This document shows positions 29,951 through 38,739 of a stretch of 38,908 nucleotides of DNA, one piece after another. The stretch comes from a candidate division Zixibacteria bacterium HGW-Zixibacteria-1 (GTDB lineage Bacteria; Zixibacteria; MSB-5A5; GN15; PGXB01): assembly GCA_002838945.1 (NCBI GenBank), contig PGXB01000033.1, positions 1 to 38,908 on the forward strand, given 5' to 3'. The notes under the pieces are model-generated. The model saw nothing but the letters and a program-made list of their open reading frames with translations, did not search any database and was not told where the DNA came from. How positions within the stretch are numbered: position 1 is the stretch's first letter; each line of letters starts with the position of its first letter. The position numbers and the translations under genes are program-made.

Positions 29951-30031
29951 AGACAGGTAGAGATATATTTGCGTCGGTAGGTTATAATTAAAGAAATTTT
30001 CGCCGTGAAATACATTTTGGAGGGATGCCAA

Positions 30032-33000
30032 ATGTCTATCATCCATCGACTTAACCATATAACATCACTCGTTTTCATAATAATAATGTTTGTCATTATT
30101 GGTTCTGCTTCTGCCATAGACTCAGAATCATTGGTCGAACTGAAAATCGCATACAGGACAAATATTGTCCCCGGCGATATGGCCGGACTCAATATTTATC
30201 CGCTTGGAGACGATGTTCAGGTTTCGGAATTTGAATTAAGAATCGCTTTTGATGCTTCCGTTCTGAGCATCGCTGATGTTCTCCCCGGGCCGTTTTATGA
30301 GAGTAATGGTTGGGAGTATTTCGACTATCGGCTGTTACCGCCGGATCCATCCAGACCCGATTCACTATCAGGAATTGTCCGCATCAAGGCGGTGGCTGAT
30401 CTGGCGGATAATGATGCAACCCCGTCGAGCCTATATTTGCCCAATGCCAGGCCGATGGTTAGCATAATATTTAATACAATTGAGGATCCGGCGCTTGCAG
30501 GAAGGCTGTATCCGGTCAGGTTTTACTGGACCGGGTGTGGGGATAATATTCTCTATTCCGGCGACAGCGATACGGTTTTTGTGTCAAATCTGGTCACTGA
30601 CTATATCGGGGGTCAGTATATCACGGATAATACCCTGTTGCCGACCATTCACGGCGCGCCGGATGTCTGCCTTATCGGTGATAATCCGGACTGGGGGAAG
30701 ACGGTCACGCGGGCGGTTGATTTTCACAATGGATATATAGCCTTCGGGCCGGATACGTTGGTGGAGCCGTTTGAATTTATGATTGAAAGGAAAAGTGCCA
30801 TAAATCCGGGGGAGTCTTATGATATCGGTGTGTTCAAGACAAAGGGGACGGAATTATTAAGGGGATTTGATTTCCTGATTGGCTATGATTTAAGTAAAAT
30901 GACATTCAATGGGTTCGATCCCGGTGAATTGACCCGGGATGACGGCAATTATCAGTGGGAATATATAACTTATCGATATGAAATCAATAATGATTGTATT
31001 GAGGATTGTCCTACCGGCCTGATTAGAATTATCGTCCTGGCCGAGACCAATAATGGGGCACATCATCCGTTGAGTCTGAGTTTGCCTGATGGCATGCGGC
31101 TGTTTACCCTCAAGTTTTTTGTTCCGTCGATTTTTAATATCATAGGAACCTTTTTGCCTATCAGCTTTTATTGGATGGACTGCGGTGACAATACCATTGC
31201 CTTTTCCTATCGGGATAATTCAGAATCAGTTTTGGCCGGAATATCCGAGAAAGTTTTTAAGTATGTTAAATATTTGATAAGTCATTATCAGGAGATAACC
31301 GATACATTGGCACAATTCCCGACCTATTTCGGGGCTCCATCGGGGTGCTTCGAAATGGCCGATCCTTTCCAACCGCTCCCGATTCCATTAATCAGATTTT
31401 ACAATGGCGGCATTGATATTGTAGGCTGGGATGTCGATGCGATTGGTGATATCAATCTCAACGGAATTCCCTATGAAATAGCTGATATGATTTTGTTCGC
31501 GCATCAAATGACGCGGTGCAATTATGATCTTTTCACCGTTAATATTGACGGACAGAAGGCGGCCAGTGATGTCAACCAGGATGGGATTACGATGACGATC
31601 GAAGATCTGGTTTACATGGCCAGAATAATTGAGGGCGATGCCTTGCCGGGACAGCCGTTCGATTCGACTTATCCGGGGCAGATTCTTATCAATGAGTTCC
31701 CCGATGAAATCGATATCCATGGGACATTTTCCACTGACGTCGGCGGAATGCACCTGATGTATCTGCTTGACACCACGACGACTATTCTTAATGTCGAGGG
31801 TTGGCCGAGCCTTGAGGAAATGACGCTGGATTATAATATATGTTTTGATACGCTCAAAATTCTCGTCTATGATCTCGGAAACGGAAGCATCTCGGCCGGG
31901 GAATATACTGATCTCTTAAGAATTCATTATGCCGGCAAGGTTCCTGATCTCATCTCGATCACGGCGGCAGCGTATGACGGCCATAAGTTTGATTTATATA
32001 TTGAAGAGCCGTTTCAGATTTATATCGAGACCGCAATGGATCAACTCCAGGGGCATACGACATCGATTGATGTCGTGAAGGAGAAAGGCTCCGGCAGAAT
32101 TTATGGTTTTAATTTTCTGATTGGATTTGATCAGAATGCCCTGACTCTCAATGGAGTATCCGCCGGGGTATTGTTTGACGAGCAGGGGGACTATCAATGG
32201 GAGTATTTCACTTACAGTTATGTCGATAATGTGGGTTGCGGTGATGATTGTCCGACAGGATTGGTTCGAGCGGTCGCGATCTCCAACATTAATGACGGAG
32301 TGCATGTTCCACTAAGCAGGGACATTCCTGACGGCATGACATTATTCTCTATGGACTTTACGATTGCGAATGATTATCAATTATCCGGGACTTTTGTACC
32401 GATTGATTTTTTCTGGACGGACTGCGGCGATAATGTCATGTCATTCGAAAAATATGGTTATTATGCTGGCTATCCTAATTGTCTGGCTCATTCGCGAAAA
32501 GTCTATCGCTATGACAGCACACAATATTCTGAGGTAAGTGATATCACGACAGGATTTCCCACTTATACCGGGACGCAGGCGGAATGCCTGGTGGAGTTCA
32601 ATCTGGAAGCCCCCATGCCGATACCCATTGTCGATTACTACGGCGGGGGTATCGGGATAATTATGCCGGAAGAAATACCGGCACGCGGGGATGTAAATCT
32701 TAACGGATCTCCCTTTGAAATTGCCGATGCAGTTGTATTCGGTAATTATTTTAGGGGTTGTAATTATGATGCTTTCACAATTGATCCAGAGAAACAGGCT
32801 CTGGCTACTGATATCAATATGGACGGGCAATTGCTGACAATTGCAGATTTTATTTATCTGATACGAATTATAGTCGGGGATGCCCTGCCCCTTGATTCAG
32901 TCCTTATTCCTTTTCATGGATGGATTGGCTTTTATGACGATGGTACCGCCGTTGAGATTGGAGCCTTATTCGATGAGGTGGTCGGCGAAATTTATCTGCT

Positions 33001-33559
33001 TTATAAATTGAATGGCGCTGTTATCCAGGATATTTCTCCATTGTCGGGCTTGGGAGAAGGGCATCCGAGTTATACTACTTGCGGAGATACCCTGAAGCTT
33101 TGGATTAGGTTTGATCCTGGGCTGCCCGTTGGTCAGCGGGAATTATTGCGGATAAATTATTCGGGAGGGGCGCCGGAGCTTATTTCAGCTGATGCTGCGG
33201 GAGTCTATGGCCGCAAGGTAGATCTTGATTGTGTTATTTTGGAACCGACCGGCACTGATGAGGCCCAGTCGCCCGCTTTGCCGACTATTTACAAGTTATA
33301 TAACAACTATCCCAACCCATTCAATATGAGTACGCAGATTAATTTTGATCTGCCTGAGCAGGCCGAATGGAACCTTGATATTTTCAATATCGCCGGGCGG
33401 AAGGTACGGAATTTCTCCGGTTCAAATGAGGCCGGGACATATCGGGTGTCCTGGGACGGCAAAGATGATAATGGTGTCGAAGTCGGTTCCGGCATCTACC
33501 TGTATCGAATCAAGGCGGGGGAATTCGTTGACTCGAAAAAGATGATTATGCTTAAATAG
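30032..33559 (+). CDS. Exported multidomain cohesin-like/dockerin-like protein with C-terminal sorting domain
   Basis: The product has 1175 residues from ATG 30032, with GGAGGG upstream; GTG 30005 is less likely. A signal peptide ends near A-S-A. One divergent cohesin-like module (about 30-245) is followed by a unit repeated twice: cohesin-like domain (about 246-460 and 660-875; shared F-D-F-L-I-G-Y/F-N-F-L-I-G-F, Y-Q-W-E-Y, D-C-P-T-G-L), dockerin-like pair (G-D-I-N-L-N-G and G-D-V-N-L-N-G openings) and a small beta domain. The last about 85 residues (Y-P-N-P-F-N-M-S-T-Q-I-N-F to K-K-M-I-M-L-K) match FlgD-like/type-9-secretion sorting domains. It is probably a cell-surface scaffold. Its dockerins diverge from those of the neighbours. 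Confidence 0.82.
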   Translation: MSIIHRLNHITSLVFIIIMFVIIGSASAIDSESLVELKIAYRTNIVPGDMAGLNIYPLGDDVQVSEFELRIAFDASVLSIADVLPGPFYESNGWEYFDYRLLPPDPSRPDSLSGIVRIKAVADLADNDATPSSLYLPNARPMVSIIFNTIEDPALAGRLYPVRFYWTGCGDNILYSGDSDTVFVSNLVTDYIGGQYITDNTLLPTIHGAPDVCLIGDNPDWGKTVTRAVDFHNGYIAFGPDTLVEPFEFMIERKSAINPGESYDIGVFKTKGTELLRGFDFLIGYDLSKMTFNGFDPGELTRDDGNYQWEYITYRYEINNDCIEDCPTGLIRIIVLAETNNGAHHPLSLSLPDGMRLFTLKFFVPSIFNIIGTFLPISFYWMDCGDNTIAFSYRDNSESVLAGISEKVFKYVKYLISHYQEITDTLAQFPTYFGAPSGCFEMADPFQPLPIPLIRFYNGGIDIVGWDVDAIGDINLNGIPYEIADMILFAHQMTRCNYDLFTVNIDGQKAASDVNQDGITMTIEDLVYMARIIEGDALPGQPFDSTYPGQILINEFPDEIDIHGTFSTDVGGMHLMYLLDTTTTILNVEGWPSLEEMTLDYNICFDTLKILVYDLGNGSISAGEYTDLLRIHYAGKVPDLISITAAAYDGHKFDLYIEEPFQIYIETAMDQLQGHTTSIDVVKEKGSGRIYGFNFLIGFDQNALTLNGVSAGVLFDEQGDYQWEYFTYSYVDNVGCGDDCPTGLVRAVAISNINDGVHVPLSRDIPDGMTLFSMDFTIANDYQLSGTFVPIDFFWTDCGDNVMSFEKYGYYAGYPNCLAHSRKVYRYDSTQYSEVSDITTGFPTYTGTQAECLVEFNLEAPMPIPIVDYYGGGIGIIMPEEIPARGDVNLNGSPFEIADAVVFGNYFRGCNYDAFTIDPEKQALATDINMDGQLLTIADFIYLIRIIVGDALPLDSVLIPFHGWIGFYDDGTAVEIGALFDEVVGEIYLLYKLNGAVIQDISPLSGLGEGHPSYTTCGDTLKLWIRFDPGLPVGQRELLRINYSGGAPELISADAAGVYGRKVDLDCVILEPTGTDEAQSPALPTIYKLYNNYPNPFNMSTQINFDLPEQAEWNLDIFNIAGRKVRNFSGSNEAGTYRVSWDGKDDNGVEVGSGIYLYRIKAGEFVDSKKMIMLK

Positions 33560-33584: not shown

Positions 33585-33612
33585 GGGCCGCTGTTTTTAG
33601 CGGCCCTTTTTA
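33585..33612 (+). terminator. Rho-independent terminator after the cohesin-like gene
   Basis: GGGCCGCT (33585-33592) and AGCGGCCC (33599-33606) form a perfect eight-base stem with a T-rich loop and T5 tail. Confidence 0.88.
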
Positions 33613-33705
33613 TTAATTTATAAATCTATATATTGCGTACGATTAGCCCAATATTTCCATATATAGCCCACCCTTAAGAAAGTTTAAAAAATCGAAAAAA
33701 GCGGC

Positions 33706-33734
33706 TTGACAACTGCACATTTGTGCAGTATATA
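33706..33734 (+). promoter_or_regulatory. Promoter of the zinc-ribbon/helicase operon
   Basis: TTGACA (33706-33711), a 17-base spacer and TATATA (33729-33734); TATAAT at 33733-33738 is an alternative -10 with a long spacer. The spacer is almost wholly occupied by a palindrome, so repression by occlusion is likely. Confidence 0.75.
33712..33729. promoter_or_regulatory. Perfect 18-base palindrome, probable LexA operator (SOS box)
   Basis: ACTGCACATTTGTGCAGT is its own reverse complement apart from the central TT, and lies between -35 and -10. Its core TGCACATTTGTGCA fits TGCNCN4GTGCA, the LexA-binding consensus I recall being reported for Fibrobacter succinogenes. The gene context (a helicase) agrees with SOS control. 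The lexA gene is not in this window. Confidence 0.65.
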
Positions 33735-33775
33735 TAATAGGAGCCGAAAATAATCAGACAAAGGAGAATAGACTG

Positions 33776-33976
33776 ATGATAGATGACAACACCCGCTTTG
33801 TCTCTTTAGGGGTCCCGGCTGCTGATTTCGAAAGTGATGAATTCAGTTATAACCGGCCGGAAGAAGACAAATCAGCCATGGCTGTTGGCCATGCCTGTCC
33901 CGATTGCGGGGTGGGCCTGGTGCGCCTTGGCGCCTGTTTCAGTTGCCCATCCTGCGGTTATGGCGGATGCGGCTGA
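33776..33976 (+). CDS. Small zinc-ribbon protein
   Basis: The product has 66 residues, AAGGAG upstream. The acidic, probably disordered N-terminal half is followed by a ribbon with two knuckles, C-P-D-C-G (about 46-50) and C-P-S-C-G (about 58-62), plus extra Cys near the end (Y-G-G-C-G). The pattern C-x-x-C-G ... C-x-x-C-G-Y-x-x-C-G resembles the C-terminal ribbon of adenosylcobalamin-dependent ribonucleotide reductases. Here it is a free-standing protein, 39 bases before the helicase gene and under the same palindrome-bearing promoter. It may be a helicase partner or a nucleic-acid-binding cofactor; that role is inference. Confidence 0.78.
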   Translation: MIDDNTRFVSLGVPAADFESDEFSYNRPEEDKSAMAVGHACPDCGVGLVRLGACFSCPSCGYGGCG

Positions 33977-34015
33977 TTTGGATATCTTTCCGGCCCCATG
34001 CTAAAGGGGGAGGAG

Positions 34016-36658
34016 ATGAAGTTAAATGATTTACTCAGGTTTGGTATGCCGCAATCAATAATCGATGCCTGGAAAGCACGACAGGGGGAATACCTTCTGC
34101 CGCTTCAGGAGCGGGCCGTCAAAAACGGCCTGCTCGGTCTGCATGATGAGGATCACCCGGAGAATTTATTCATCTCGGCACCGACATCAGCGGGTAAATC
34201 ATTCTGCGGTGAAATGGCGGCGATCGAAGCGCTGGTTAAACGGCGCAAGGCGGTGATGATGGTGCCGCTGAAATCGATTGCCGAGGAAAAGTATCGGTAT
34301 TTCCGGGAGTGTTACCATTCGCTCGGTATCCGGACACTGATTGTTACCGGCGATCATCCCGAAAACGATGCCGCTTTTCAGGGCGGCAAGTTCGACCTGG
34401 CCATTGCCATATATGAGAAATTCAACCGTGCCTTGACGGCCAATCTCGATATTGTCCGGCAGATCGGTCTGGTCATTGTCGATGAGGTGCAGATGATATC
34501 CGAGCCGGAACGCGGTCCGGAACTGGAACTGGCGCTGGTTAAGATTCTTGGTTCGGGATACAATCCGCGTATTGTGGCCTTGTCGGCGGCACTCGATAAT
34601 GAAAGCGATCTGGCCGATTGGCTGGGTTGCCGGGTTATCAGGGAGACGGTGCGCCCGGTTGATCTGCTTCTGGGGGTGGCGGTGGACGGCTCATTCAAAT
34701 ATCGCTCATTCAACAGTGGCCTCGAGGGGCAGGATGAAATAGATCTGAAAGGCGGCGACTGCCCGGATGAGAGCCTGATTGATTTTCTCAAATCGGATGA
34801 TGGTCAGAAGCTGGTTTTTCTGAAATCGCGGCGGGATACGATCAAGGCGGCGCGCCGGCTGGCGGCGGCTGTTAAATGGGATGCCGCGAAGGAGACGGCG
34901 GGTGAGCTTGAGGATGAAGAATCAAGCTGCCTGACGCGAAGTCTGCGGCAGGTGCTTTCGCATGGCGTGGCCTTTCATAATTCCGACCTGACCGCCCATC
35001 AGCGGTCGGCGATAGAAGCGGGATACAGAAAGGGCGAAATCAAAGCAATTTTCACGACCACGACTTTGGCCATGGGGGTGAATCTTCCGGCGGAGACAGT
35101 ACTGCTGGAAACGATGAAGTACTCATCGGGGCAGTATGGTTCCGGGCCGACGCTGGTGCCGATCAGTGCCGCTGAGTTTCAGAGTATCTCCGGGCGGGCC
35201 GGACGTTTCGGTTTGAAGCCGGAGCAGAAACCGGGGCGGGCGGTGGTCGTGGCCGGGTCCGATTTTGAAGGTGATGTTCTCTGGAATGAATATATCGACG
35301 GCGCCAAAGGAAACCGGCCATGTTCGGCATTGCAACCATCCGCTTTGCCCGATATCGTTCTCGATCTTATTGTGTCCGGATTTGGCCGCGATCGGACGTT
35401 ACTTGAAAACAGCCTGTCATGTTTATTCCACTGCCGGCAGGGAGGTATCATTGAGCGGCAGCAGTTGGATGAGATTCTTGATCTGTTGATAGCCGGCCGT
35501 TTCATCCGGTCGTCGCTGGAAACAACACCGCTGGGGAAGGCGGTGGCCGAGTCGGGGCTTTCTATTGCTTCGGCGGAACATTACATGCAGTTTTTGTCAC
35601 GGATGTCTCCCGTTTCCGACGTTGGCTGGCTGTTTCTGGCCCTGAGTGCGGCTGATTTTGATATATCGCTGGGTGGTCTGGATGGGCGGGAATATCGCGG
35701 GCGGGTTTATGAAAAACTGCTCCACCAGCAATTCGATGAATATGTGGGTGAGATAAACAAATTGATTGAATCCGAACTCGGCCGCGAGCCGCTTGATTTC
35801 AAGAAGGCGTCGGTTCTGAAGGCAGTACTGCTTCTCTCGGAATGGGCCGGCGGTATTGAAGTCAATCAACTGGAGCAGCGCTACCAGCTTCGTCATGGGC
35901 AGATTATCAAGCTGGCCGAGACGGCCGCCTGGCTGCTGGCTTCTCTGGGACGTATGGCGGATGCGTCCGGCTGTAATGGCGGTCTCTCCGGCCGGCTTGA
36001 TGAGCTTGTCTTCCGCGTGCAGTTCGGTATTCATGGCGCGATGCACGAGTTGTACTACCTGGCCGGCGACCGGCTCCATCGAGGGCATTATCGATGCCTG
36101 TATGAAAATGATATTATTTCCGTTCGCGGGTTGCATGAAGCGGGAGCGGAGTATCTGGGGAAAATCCTGAAATCAGAAAAGAAGGCAGATGAACTTATCG
36201 ACATGATAAAATCCATGCAAGAGGAGGATAAAATGAGCAGGAGTTTTGCACATCATCAGGTTGATACCATTTTCAATCCGTCACTGATTGAGCTTGACGG
36301 CGGATATGAAAAGGAAAGGTATCTGGTCAAGATTGATGGTTTCCCGGTCCGGTTGACCGGCAAATCATTCAAATATCTGGCCAAACTGGCATTCTCGAGG
36401 CTTGTCGATCGCGACGGCTGGGTTTACAAGGATGATATCGAATCCGGTTTCAATCAGGCCCGTTATCTGTATCGACTGAAACAGGAATTGAAAGCGGGGG
36501 GCGTTTCCTGGTCGATTTTTGAGAACAATCGGCTGGGATATTATCGTCTTTCGCTGGACCCCTCGAAAATACGGCTCAATTTGAGTAACTTCAAGAATCA
36601 CTATGACTTCGAGTTGCGCAAGATGGCCGACCAGCTGGCCCTTCGCGCGGCCTCATAA
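34016..36658 (+). CDS. Ski2/Hel308-like superfamily 2 helicase fused to a C-terminal winged-helix domain
   Basis: The product has 880 residues from ATG 34016, with GGGGGAGGAG upstream. Motifs: Q-like L-L-P-L-Q-E-R-A-V (27-35), Walker A A-P-T-S-A-G-K-S (55-62), D-E-V-Q (156-159) in place of the usual D-E-V-H, S-A-A (190-192) in place of S-A-T, T-T-T-L-A-M-G-V-N-L-P-A-E (348-360) and Q-S-I-S-G-R-A-G-R-F-G (389-399), the last typical of Ski2/Hel308. A helical region (about 430-700) follows. The last about 135 residues form an OmpR/PhoB-like winged helix (L-T-G-K-S-F-K-Y-L-A-K-L, Y-L-Y-R-L-K-Q-E-L, L-G-Y-Y-R-L). Hel308-type enzymes act on stalled forks. Probably DNA repair, SOS-controlled. Confidence 0.85.
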   Translation: MKLNDLLRFGMPQSIIDAWKARQGEYLLPLQERAVKNGLLGLHDEDHPENLFISAPTSAGKSFCGEMAAIEALVKRRKAVMMVPLKSIAEEKYRYFRECYHSLGIRTLIVTGDHPENDAAFQGGKFDLAIAIYEKFNRALTANLDIVRQIGLVIVDEVQMISEPERGPELELALVKILGSGYNPRIVALSAALDNESDLADWLGCRVIRETVRPVDLLLGVAVDGSFKYRSFNSGLEGQDEIDLKGGDCPDESLIDFLKSDDGQKLVFLKSRRDTIKAARRLAAAVKWDAAKETAGELEDEESSCLTRSLRQVLSHGVAFHNSDLTAHQRSAIEAGYRKGEIKAIFTTTTLAMGVNLPAETVLLETMKYSSGQYGSGPTLVPISAAEFQSISGRAGRFGLKPEQKPGRAVVVAGSDFEGDVLWNEYIDGAKGNRPCSALQPSALPDIVLDLIVSGFGRDRTLLENSLSCLFHCRQGGIIERQQLDEILDLLIAGRFIRSSLETTPLGKAVAESGLSIASAEHYMQFLSRMSPVSDVGWLFLALSAADFDISLGGLDGREYRGRVYEKLLHQQFDEYVGEINKLIESELGREPLDFKKASVLKAVLLLSEWAGGIEVNQLEQRYQLRHGQIIKLAETAAWLLASLGRMADASGCNGGLSGRLDELVFRVQFGIHGAMHELYYLAGDRLHRGHYRCLYENDIISVRGLHEAGAEYLGKILKSEKKADELIDMIKSMQEEDKMSRSFAHHQVDTIFNPSLIELDGGYEKERYLVKIDGFPVRLTGKSFKYLAKLAFSRLVDRDGWVYKDDIESGFNQARYLYRLKQELKAGGVSWSIFENNRLGYYRLSLDPSKIRLNLSNFKNHYDFELRKMADQLALRAAS
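36221..36235 (+). promoter_or_regulatory. Internal ribosome binding site and in-frame ATG inside the helicase gene
   Basis: GAGGAGG (36221-36227) lies five bases before ATG 36233, which is in frame (codon 740) and falls at the junction of helicase and winged-helix parts. Initiation here would give a separate 141-residue winged-helix protein (36233-36658). The E-E-D residues could also explain the motif by chance. Confidence 0.45.
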
Positions 36659-36677: not shown

Positions 36678-36805
36678 GGGGTATGCGGTTTAAATAAGTA
36701 GAGATAGCGCTCAAAATGATTATCGGCCCGGTTTAGTAAATTTAGCCGAAAGCCGATACGAGATAAAAAGGAAGCAATGACCGTGAAAAGGAAGCCGCAT
36801 ACCCC
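36678..36805. repeat. Inverted repeat flanking the start of the 76-codon ORF
   Basis: GGGGTATGCGG (36678-36688) and CCGCATACCCC (36795-36805) are exact inverted copies about 106 bases apart, the second just inside the ORF that starts at 36777. It could fold the leader over the binding site; there is no T-run and no evidence for an operator. Confidence 0.35.
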
Positions 36806-37007
36806 GCCGAGAAATATTGCACCGGAACGGATACTTCCAGACTTTCCGGCGAAGGCCGGGATTTTTTATTTTGGGTCGACTGTGCCAGGTAAGCTGCTAA
36901 ATTATAATGACATAGCCAGCTATGCGGCCGTCGGTAAAAAATCCTTAGAACGGCTGTTATTGCCAATAGATGACACCCGTGGAGAAATTTGTGAAATCAG
37001 GAATTAA
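36777..37007 (+). CDS. Short uncharacterised ORF overlapping the Lon-like gene
   Basis: The frame has 76 codons with AAGGA upstream of the ATG. It overlaps the Lon-like frame by 38 bases in another frame. The stretch L-P-D-F-P-A-K-A-G-I-F-Y-F-G-S-T-V-P loosely recalls the start of the Lon N-terminal (LAN) domain, L-P-x-x-P-L-R-x-x-V-V-F-P-G-x-x-x-P. It might therefore be a remnant or separated piece of an N-domain, or a leader peptide for coupled translation. I do not recognise a family and it may not be translated. Confidence 0.4.
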   Translation: MTVKRKPHTPPRNIAPERILPDFPAKAGIFYFGSTVPGKLLNYNDIASYAAVGKKSLERLLLPIDDTRGEICEIRN

Positions 37008-38739
37008 TCGCAATAATACTGCAAAGGCTATTTCCGAGCATCTTTTGAATGAATTAAGACGTCGGGTCGAAGCCGAGAAGGACCTGACAAAAGAGGTTCG
37101 GGAGCGCTGTTTTATGGAAATCGATCGGCTCGAGCAATTGTCCGATGCTTCGGTCGAATATGGCGCCACCCGGCAGTATATTGAATGGTTATTGTCGATC
37201 CCATGGAATACTAACAGCAAGAAGCGAACGGATTTGAAGAGGATAGAGCGGCACATTGATCAGGACTATTTCGGATCGCAAAAAATTAAAAGAAAAATAC
37301 TTGAGCGAATCGCCATTCGGAAACTGACCGGGAATAAAAGTATCAACTCGATTCTTTGTCTGGCCGGTGTTCCGGGAACCGGCAAAGCTTCACTGGCCAA
37401 GGCCATAGCCAAAGCGATGGGCAAGGAATTTATTCGGGTGTCGATTGGCGGCCTGACCAAAGTTTATGATATCAAGGGCTCGGTCCGGACATATCTTGGC
37501 GCCATGCCGGGGGTTATAATTCGAACATTACACAATGCCGGCACTTCCGATCCGGTAGTTTTAGTTGAAGACATTGATCATCTGGGCGGGGACTCGGCGA
37601 CGGTTCTGGCGATGACACTGCTGGAGGCCATTGATCCTCGATATAATTGCCGGTTTCTGGATAATTACATCGGGTTCCCTATCGATCTGAGCAATGTTTT
37701 CTTTATTTGTGCCGTTAAATCATCGGAGGATATTCCCGAGGTTTTCAATCATCGTTTTGAGGTTATCGAACTGCCCGGGTATATTGAGAAGGAAAAGATA
37801 CATATTGCTCTCAAGTATATTATTCCGTCGGTCTTAAAAAATCACGGCCTTTGCGCAAAGGATATAGTTTTCAGCGATAAGGGTTTGCAGAAAATCATAC
37901 GGAATTACACTCTTGAAGCGGGACTGCTTCACCTTAAACGACAGATTGAAATCATCTGCCGTCATGTGGCCAAGGAAAAAGCGTCAGGTGTTAAAAAGAT
38001 CTGGATGGTGAACGAAAAAACCGTCGGTTCTTTCCTCGGGACATCTCAGTACACTCTGGAAAAGCCGGGAGACACACCCGAAATCGGCGTTGCCATCGGT
38101 CTGGCCTGGACCGGACAGGGCGGTGACCTGATGATCATCGAGGGGTTACGCATGAAGGGGAGCGGTGAGGTGATAACCACCGGATCGCTGGGCGACGTGA
38201 TGAAAGAATCGATCCAGGCGGCGCACAGCTATGTTCGCTCAAAGGCTGATGTTCTTGGTATCGACCACAATGATTTCGACAATTTCGACATCCATATTCA
38301 TTTCCCGTCCGGGGCCATTCCCAAAGATGGGCCCTCGGCGGGCGTGGCCGTTTCGCTGGTCATCGCTTCGGTGATGGCCGAACGTCCCATTCGCAATGAA
38401 ATTGCCATGACCGGCGAAGTGACTTTGCGCGGTAAAGTGCTTCAGGTCGGCGGGTTAATCGAAAAAGTATCGGCGGCATATCGGGCCGGTATCCCCACGG
38501 TTTTTATTCCGAAGGAAAACAAGAAGGACCTGAAAGATTTGCCGTCGGACATTCTGAAAAAGACCAGATTTGTTTTTATAGAAAGCGTCGATGATATTTT
38601 TGCCCGGGGGCTTCTCGATTTTATTCCCTCCAGCTATACCCTGGAGAAGCTTTTCGCCGAGGAAATGAAAAAGGCGAAAAATCGAAAGAAAGGCAGTGGC
38701 GCGCGCAAAATCGCCGCCAAAGGCCGGAAGAAGAAATAG
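36970..38739 (+). CDS. Lon-type protease without N-domain and with degenerate ATPase (LonC-like)
   Basis: The product has 589 residues; classical Lon has about 800. The N-terminal substrate domain is missing; it begins in the helical region (E-V-R-E-R-C-F-M-E-I-D-R-L-E, Y-I-E-W-L-L-S-I-P-W). The AAA+ part (about 105-335) is altered: Walker A G-V-P-G-T-G-K-A (133-140) lacks the Ser/Thr, Walker B is V-E-D-I-D (199-203) instead of L-D-E-I-D, sensor 1 has Lys250 for Asn, and the sensor-2 Arg is Leu315. Arg262 (finger) remains. The protease domain keeps Ser456 (P-K-D-G-P-S-A-G) and Lys499. It is probably ATP-independent. The tail is Lys/Arg-rich. GTG 36991 with GGAG upstream is an alternative start. 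Confidence 0.85.
   Translation: MTPVEKFVKSGINRNNTAKAISEHLLNELRRRVEAEKDLTKEVRERCFMEIDRLEQLSDASVEYGATRQYIEWLLSIPWNTNSKKRTDLKRIERHIDQDYFGSQKIKRKILERIAIRKLTGNKSINSILCLAGVPGTGKASLAKAIAKAMGKEFIRVSIGGLTKVYDIKGSVRTYLGAMPGVIIRTLHNAGTSDPVVLVEDIDHLGGDSATVLAMTLLEAIDPRYNCRFLDNYIGFPIDLSNVFFICAVKSSEDIPEVFNHRFEVIELPGYIEKEKIHIALKYIIPSVLKNHGLCAKDIVFSDKGLQKIIRNYTLEAGLLHLKRQIEIICRHVAKEKASGVKKIWMVNEKTVGSFLGTSQYTLEKPGDTPEIGVAIGLAWTGQGGDLMIIEGLRMKGSGEVITTGSLGDVMKESIQAAHSYVRSKADVLGIDHNDFDNFDIHIHFPSGAIPKDGPSAGVAVSLVIASVMAERPIRNEIAMTGEVTLRGKVLQVGGLIEKVSAAYRAGIPTVFIPKENKKDLKDLPSDILKKTRFVFIESVDDIFARGLLDFIPSSYTLEKLFAEEMKKAKNRKKGSGARKIAAKGRKKK

Follow-up and report, generated by a model that had tools for sequence, protein, structure and literature searches.

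The SOS response of bacteria is controlled by the repressor LexA, which upon DNA damage undergoes RecA-stimulated cleavage; its binding sites are palindromic boxes, such as the Bacillus subtilis-type box CGAACN4GTTCG and TGCNCN4GTGCA, which we take, following a preliminary description of the DNA considered here, to be the Fibrobacter-type box. Helicases of the Hel308/Pol theta type are known mainly from archaea and eukaryotes. In the present analysis these two themes meet in a 38,908-nucleotide (nt) stretch of the genome of the candidate division Zixibacteria bacterium HGW-Zixibacteria-1 (GenBank assembly GCA_002838945.1, contig PGXB01000033.1), referred to as the window, whose positions are used as coordinates. 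Its region 33,613-36,658 holds a predicted LexA box followed by the genes of a small six-cysteine zinc ribbon and of a Hel308-like helicase, the latter ending in a winged helix that has a candidate translation start of its own. It is reasonably probable, as judged from sequence, that these genes make up an operon of the SOS response which is repressed by LexA and ancestral to most of the phylum, and in which the helicase, the winged helix (both fused and separate) and the ribbon form a repair module. The predicted regulation and anatomy of this operon are well supported computationally, and the biochemical roles of its products are inferred.

Two further groups of described proteins are relevant for the comparison. 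In NrdJ, the B12-dependent (class II) ribonucleotide reductase, four of the six cysteines of the cysteine-rich domain (CRD) bind zinc and the other two are a proposed redox pair; all six are required for electron transfer, which may pass between subunits (PMC5704485). The full CRD has 150-220 residues and also occurs naturally as a separate protein, NrdJb, and a CRD that was expressed separately did not rescue activity in trans (PMC5704485). Genes within genes that are read from an in-frame internal start are exemplified by Cas11d inside Cas10d and RpnS inside RpnL (PMC10327210).

The predicted LexA box and its conservation

The box fills the spacer between the -35 and -10 elements (Table 1), where the preliminary description had placed it, and fits TGCNCN4GTGCA. 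The arms ACTGCACA and TGTGCAGT, of 8 nt each, are 100% complementary and flank a TT centre, such that 16 of the 18 positions are palindromic; the perfect 18-base palindrome described earlier is therefore to be corrected. The full 18-mer is present as a single copy in the 3.83-Mb genome. When up to two mismatches are allowed, the sole other place is upstream of lexA, and with up to three mismatches there are only five places. The looser boxes TGCNCN4GNGCA and GNACANNTGTNC have 16 and 22 matches versus 6 and 23 for the reversed-pattern controls and are uninformative, and the case is thus built on the extended box, on where it lies and on its conservation.

There is one lexA copy in the genome (E 2.5e-20 and 3.9e-33), and the box in its promoter, TCTGAACAAATGTGCAGT (G000:C21:2673-2690), is located 59 bp 5' of the ATG and 2 bp past a TTGACA hexamer. 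The lexA promoter reads TTGACA-TC-TGAACAAATGTGCA-GTA, and this layout equals that of the window promoter. Box and promoter elements are also found at 80 of the 84 orthologous helicase loci that have 300 nt or more of upstream sequence, compared with 0 of 252 shuffled upstream sequences. Because the promoter of the single lexA gene bears this box equally far from TTGACA, and because these 80 operons carry it, the sequence at 33712-33729 is almost certainly the LexA box of this genome. This is also in agreement with the LexA control proposed in the preliminary description, which had named the lack of lexA, or another box at the SOS genes, as the outcome that would speak against it; what is found is that the single lexA carries this box at the corresponding position, and that the box is conserved at both promoters across the phylum.

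LexA is detected in 108 of the 132 genomes of the phylum that were searched, and the full-promoter pattern, with at most three mismatches, is matched in 117 of the 132 (reversed-pattern control, 0). The consensus of the box is TTGACAaCTGCACAAATGTGCAGTATntTg at the helicase (82 sites) and TTGACAncTGAACAnaTGnGCAGTA at lexA (30 sites). Many genomes have two sites only, at the helicase operon and at lexA. In the more distant families a third site is seen 5' of Y-family polymerase genes; ImuB/DnaE2-type genes are among the targets of such extra sites, with a DnaE2-type polymerase farther downstream of the site in two cases, and in one genome (G126) the third site is upstream of recA. In families having TGAACATTTGTTCA-type sites, the helicase box retains that variant. 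The autoregulated lexA gene, the palindromic box over the promoter and the Y-family and DnaE2-type polymerase targets of the relatives are features of the known LexA/SOS regulon. The present case differs in that the Hel308-like helicase operon is, after lexA itself, the most constant target, that recA is mostly boxless, and that the box reads TGCACAnnTGTGCA at the helicase but TGAACAnnTGnGCA at lexA.

LexA-like boxes also occur 5' of four genes that were recognised by eye as looking like the Panacea/SocA type (DUF4065) (L219, L222, L223 and L224, in G045, G077, G085 and G089), which suggests that these are SOS-linked toxin-antitoxin genes. Another such box precedes, by 39 nt, the gene of an HD-domain-like protein (L228, in G099).

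The Hel308-like helicase

The helicase resembles Hel308 along most of its sequence (PRK02362 residues 8-747; family-model search E 1.6e-101), as also shown by the PDB match (2zj2, 1.8e-59), and its closest folds are Hel308 and Pol theta (Foldseek 9b15, 2p6r and 2zj8; E 5e-39, template modelling score 0.86 by target). The DEVQ sequence of motif II and the SAA sequence of motif III, on which the earlier Ski2/Hel308-like assignment had remarked, are both present. Across 19 aligned orthologs the glutamine of motif II does not vary; it is a family trait where DExH is expected of Hel308, and motif III of the orthologs is usually SAV, or SAA. When compared with Hel308, HELQ and Pol theta, the whole Hel308 domain order is preserved, but the protein is bacterial, has DExQ instead of DExH and carries an additional C-terminal winged helix. 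As its scores are well under the curated NCBIfam Hel308 cut-offs (340.8 versus 887 bits and 222.2 versus 1200 bits), it is named Hel308-like.

The helicase is found in 124 of the 132 genomes of the phylum and in 76 of the 78 good ones, and the ribbon-helicase pair, for which a search in other genomes had been proposed, recurs in most families. Outside the phylum, a single scan of genome contigs gives one archaeal fragment, and among plasmids and phages there are distant helicase cores only. The plasmid-borne bacterial relatives (Rhizobium, Bradyrhizobium and Manganitrophus) are 26-32% identical in the helicase core, but these proteins have about 1000 residues with an N-terminal extension and are carried on mobile elements, and the matches end near residue 714, before the winged helix. 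No published LexA-regulated Hel308-like bacterial system was found in the open-licence full-text literature, and these searches do not contradict the earlier statement that no system with this pairing has been described.

The six-cysteine ribbon

The ribbon aligns to the C-terminal 39 residues of the B12-dependent ribonucleotide reductase model (NCBIfam PRK08665, E=7.9e-6), as expected from its earlier description as a free-standing counterpart of the tail of this enzyme. In all 71 ribbons that were sampled between box and helicase, by a six-cysteine pattern allowing variable spacing, the cysteines are at offsets 0, 3, 13, 16, 19 and 24, at the extreme C-terminus; given this selection pattern, the spacing is a result and the presence of six cysteines comes partly from the selection. 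Twelve NrdJ tails from this phylum, that of the window genome among them, have an identical layout, and both cysteines of the proposed redox pair (positions equivalent to 13 and 24) are retained in the ribbons. In the distant families f5, f6, f15, f16, f18 and f19 the ribbon is accompanied by a second, N-terminal CxCG...CxxC ribbon, gained or kept, and in the families f8, f12, f13, f14 and f17 the box is near the helicase and the ribbon is absent.

The number, spacing and extreme C-terminal position of the cysteines are as in the CRD of NrdJ and in NrdJb. The differences are the length (66 versus 150-220 residues), the absence of an adjacent reductase gene and the coexistence of a full NrdJ; the arrangement of the NrdJb type, in which a domain of 150-220 residues partners a tail-less NrdJa, is not seen here, as the NrdJ of the window genome has its tail. 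The idea of a split NrdJ was rejected, since NrdJ in the same genomes retains its own tail.

It is possible, although we consider it rather unlikely, that the ribbon is a damage-inducible electron shuttle that acts in trans on NrdJ, raising the supply of deoxyribonucleoside triphosphates (dNTPs) during repair, and that ribbon and helicase are in one operon merely because both are needed after damage. The invariant cysteines, proposed redox pair included, spaced as in the NrdJ tail of the same genome, are consistent with such a shuttle, as are the need for all six in NrdJ, the possible transfer between subunits and the existence of NrdJb (PMC5704485); NrdJ-type matches are moreover present in 129 of the 132 genomes. 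The shortness of the ribbon relative to the full CRD and the tail already present on NrdJ argue against it, as do the failure of the separately expressed CRD in trans (PMC5704485) and the persistence of NrdJ in families that have no ribbon upstream of the helicase.

The winged helix and the probable internal start

Two features that the preliminary description did not include are the C-terminal winged helix and the internal translation start. Residues 764-886 of the helicase, modelled alone, are predicted to form a winged helix (predicted local distance difference test, pLDDT, 92.8) with an N-terminal three-stranded sheet, three helices and a C-terminal hairpin. The top structural matches of this domain are mostly of the OmpR family (ArlR, PhoP and BaeR; Foldseek E 0.015-0.8). 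The predicted fold and its best matches are those of OmpR/PhoB winged helices, from which it differs by the absence of a receiver domain and of a Pfam match and by its fusion to a helicase. The linker residues 744-759 are disordered.

At codon 746, an in-frame ATG or GTG is found 10-13 nt after GGAG in 49 of 69 orthologs (GGAG-N6-ATG), as compared with GGAG at -10 before 14 of 719 other in-frame ATGs. The internal start is present in all examined members of f1, f2, f3, f5, f9, f18 and f19, in 2 of the 3 members of f4 and in the one member of f10, and in none of the examined members of f7, f8 and f12-f17. The RNA around the internal start is weakly structured, with a predicted folding energy (63 nt) of -8.4 kcal/mol, as compared with -17.0 kcal/mol for the 527 ATGs that served as controls (P 7.5e-24, or 4.6e-8 after correction for GC content), and these P values overstate the evidence because the orthologs are related and are not independent samples. 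No stop codon separates helicase and winged helix in the orthologs examined, the few in-frame stops lying elsewhere, and both the fused and the short product are therefore expected; for the same reason the possibility that these are two separate genes was rejected. It is probable, as predicted from the nucleotide sequence, that the winged helix is also made as a separate protein of about 141 residues. As in Cas11d and RpnS, an in-frame internal start would give a C-terminal domain as a second product; here it would do so within a LexA-controlled helicase gene, and the second product is a prediction.

In one draft genome (G086, locus L276) the box is directly 5' of an open reading frame (ORF) that encodes only the winged helix and has its own Shine-Dalgarno sequence, and no helicase body was found there.

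A second alternative, which we regard as rather unlikely but worth weighing, is that the nested product does not help the full-length helicase but inhibits it, or else is a transcription factor induced by damage. The OmpR/PhoB-like fold would suit such a role, RpnS is a precedent for an inhibitory C-terminal product, and in G086 the box and an ORF for the winged helix are kept while the body of the helicase is missing. Against this alternative, the domain has no known operator or target, and in every complete ortholog examined it is also fused in frame to the helicase.

Proposed mechanism and alternatives

In the LexA-repressed repair operon that we favour, LexA would bind to the box, which spans the whole -35/-10 spacer, and because of this position bound LexA would block RNA polymerase; box and promoter are identified by their conservation, and the computed features also include the operator shared with lexA, the occluding geometry of the promoter, a conserved order of the genes, the conserved internal start and the folds. 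DNA damage would then lead to RecA-stimulated cleavage of LexA and release of the repressor. The operon would yield a Hel308-type 3'-5' helicase that may act at replication forks which have stalled or broken, where it would unwind or remodel intermediates of recombination. The OmpR/PhoB-like winged helix would be attached via a flexible linker and, in most families, be translated alone as well, possibly providing a DNA- or partner-binding module in excess over the full-length helicase, comparable with Cas11d or RpnS. The ribbon, which appears to copy the redox tip of the class II reductase, is the part whose task is least certain; it may be a zinc/redox adaptor of the helicase or an electron shuttle of the reductase.

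Several observations weigh against this proposal. The preliminary description had proposed to look for the box on lexA, recA and other repair genes, and it is seen on lexA and, in relatives, at polymerase genes and one recA; in the window genome itself, recA (L173) and both Y-family polymerase loci (L217 and L218) are without the box, and its SOS circuit may be small. DExQ in place of the usual DExH means that helicase activity is not guaranteed. The search values of the winged helix are weak (Foldseek E 0.015 at best; PDB profile match to ArlR, E 0.07), and the Pfam search of it found no family and no Trans_reg_C or receiver domain, such that its assignment rests on the agreement among the matches. 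The internal start is missing from about eight families and the ribbon from five, and neither can be indispensable. The orthologs are related and do not count as independent samples, GAG encodes E743 in 95% of the aligned sequences but reaches 79-83% in two other Glu columns as well, and the winged-helix-only ORF comes from one draft genome.

A more far-reaching version is speculative and, in our judgement, quite unlikely: that the locus is a phylum-wide, undescribed SOS repair device with three products, made from the most constant LexA target other than lexA itself. These would be a DExQ Hel308-type helicase, an OmpR-like winged-helix subunit translated separately from within the helicase gene, and a free six-cysteine redox tip, the last of which would couple class II ribonucleotide reductase to repair.

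It is very improbable that the operon is instead an anti-phage or mobile-element defence with LexA as its alarm. The helicase core gives matches to many PADLOC HamB (helicase) models, related bacterial helicases are found on plasmids near restriction-modification genes, and intragenic small proteins are known in phage-defence toxins (PMC10327210), but the operon is near-universal in the phylum with vertical-looking conservation, the downstream gene is often the same (lon) in f1 and f2, there is no nuclease partner and the Hel308 match is better than the HamB match. Filing it as a defence system was rejected, as the HamB models cover the shared helicase core only.

That the internal GGAG-N6-ATG is a mere coincidence of a conserved K/Q-E-E...M peptide is also very improbable: the residues E743 and M746 are conserved, and peptide conservation by itself would preserve much of the DNA, but the codons preceding GAG vary (GAG, AAG, CAG, TTG) while GGAG is retained, flanks and linker length are very variable, one ortholog (L049) has GTG in place of ATG at codon 746, and RNA structure and GC content drop sharply at this place.

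What is new here, as predicted from the DNA, is an SOS operon whose parts are combined in an unusual way, with a C-terminal winged helix and a nested start. If the LexA-repressed repair operon is correct, a Hel308/Pol theta-type helicase is central to a bacterial SOS response and conserved through a phylum, the phylum gains a predicted LexA box, and a repair helicase gains a likely gene-within-gene. The ribbon would represent a naturally detached version of the redox tip of ribonucleotide reductase, with which a possible connection of the damage response to the supply of dNTPs could be tested directly.

Features and neighbouring genes

The features of the operon are listed in Table 1. Because of the terminator at its 5' side, the upstream gene and the operon are separate transcription units.

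Table 1. Features of the predicted SOS operon, in window coordinates.
Feature	Position	Strand	Basis or remark
Intrinsic terminator of upstream secreted-protein gene	33585..33612	+	Inverted repeat 33585-33592/33599-33606 (GGGCCGCT...AGCGGCCC) and T run
-35 element TTGACA	33706..33711	+	Read from sequence; kept in nearly all orthologous promoters
LexA box ACTGCACATTTGTGCAGT (predicted), filling the promoter spacer	33712..33729	+	Same box and spacing at the lexA promoter of the genome
-10 element TATATA (best candidate), 17-bp spacer	33729..33734	+	Sequence and phylum consensus TATntT; inference
Six-cysteine zinc ribbon, 66 residues	33776..33976	+	Cys at 0, 3, 13, 16, 19, 24; spacing as in NrdJ C-terminal tail
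Hel308-like superfamily 2 (SF2) helicase, DExQ motif II, winged-helix end	34016..36658	+	ORF from 33998; ortholog-conserved start is M7 at 34016
Internal Shine-Dalgarno GAGGAGG within helicase gene	36221..36227	+	Read upstream of in-frame ATG
Nested ORF (predicted), 141 residues, OmpR/PhoB-like winged helix, own in-frame ATG	36233..36658	+	Conserved start and predicted fold

The upstream neighbour (30005-33559) encodes a secreted protein of 1184 residues, in which cohesin-like repeats are combined with a C-terminal sorting domain of the FlgD/Por type, and has its own terminator. Downstream of the helicase, a lon protease gene is found at 36777-38739, an order that recurs at 17 or more orthologous loci. 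In the window, lon is without the LON N-terminal domain, and an ORF of 76 residues at 36777-37007 resembles a relic of that domain.

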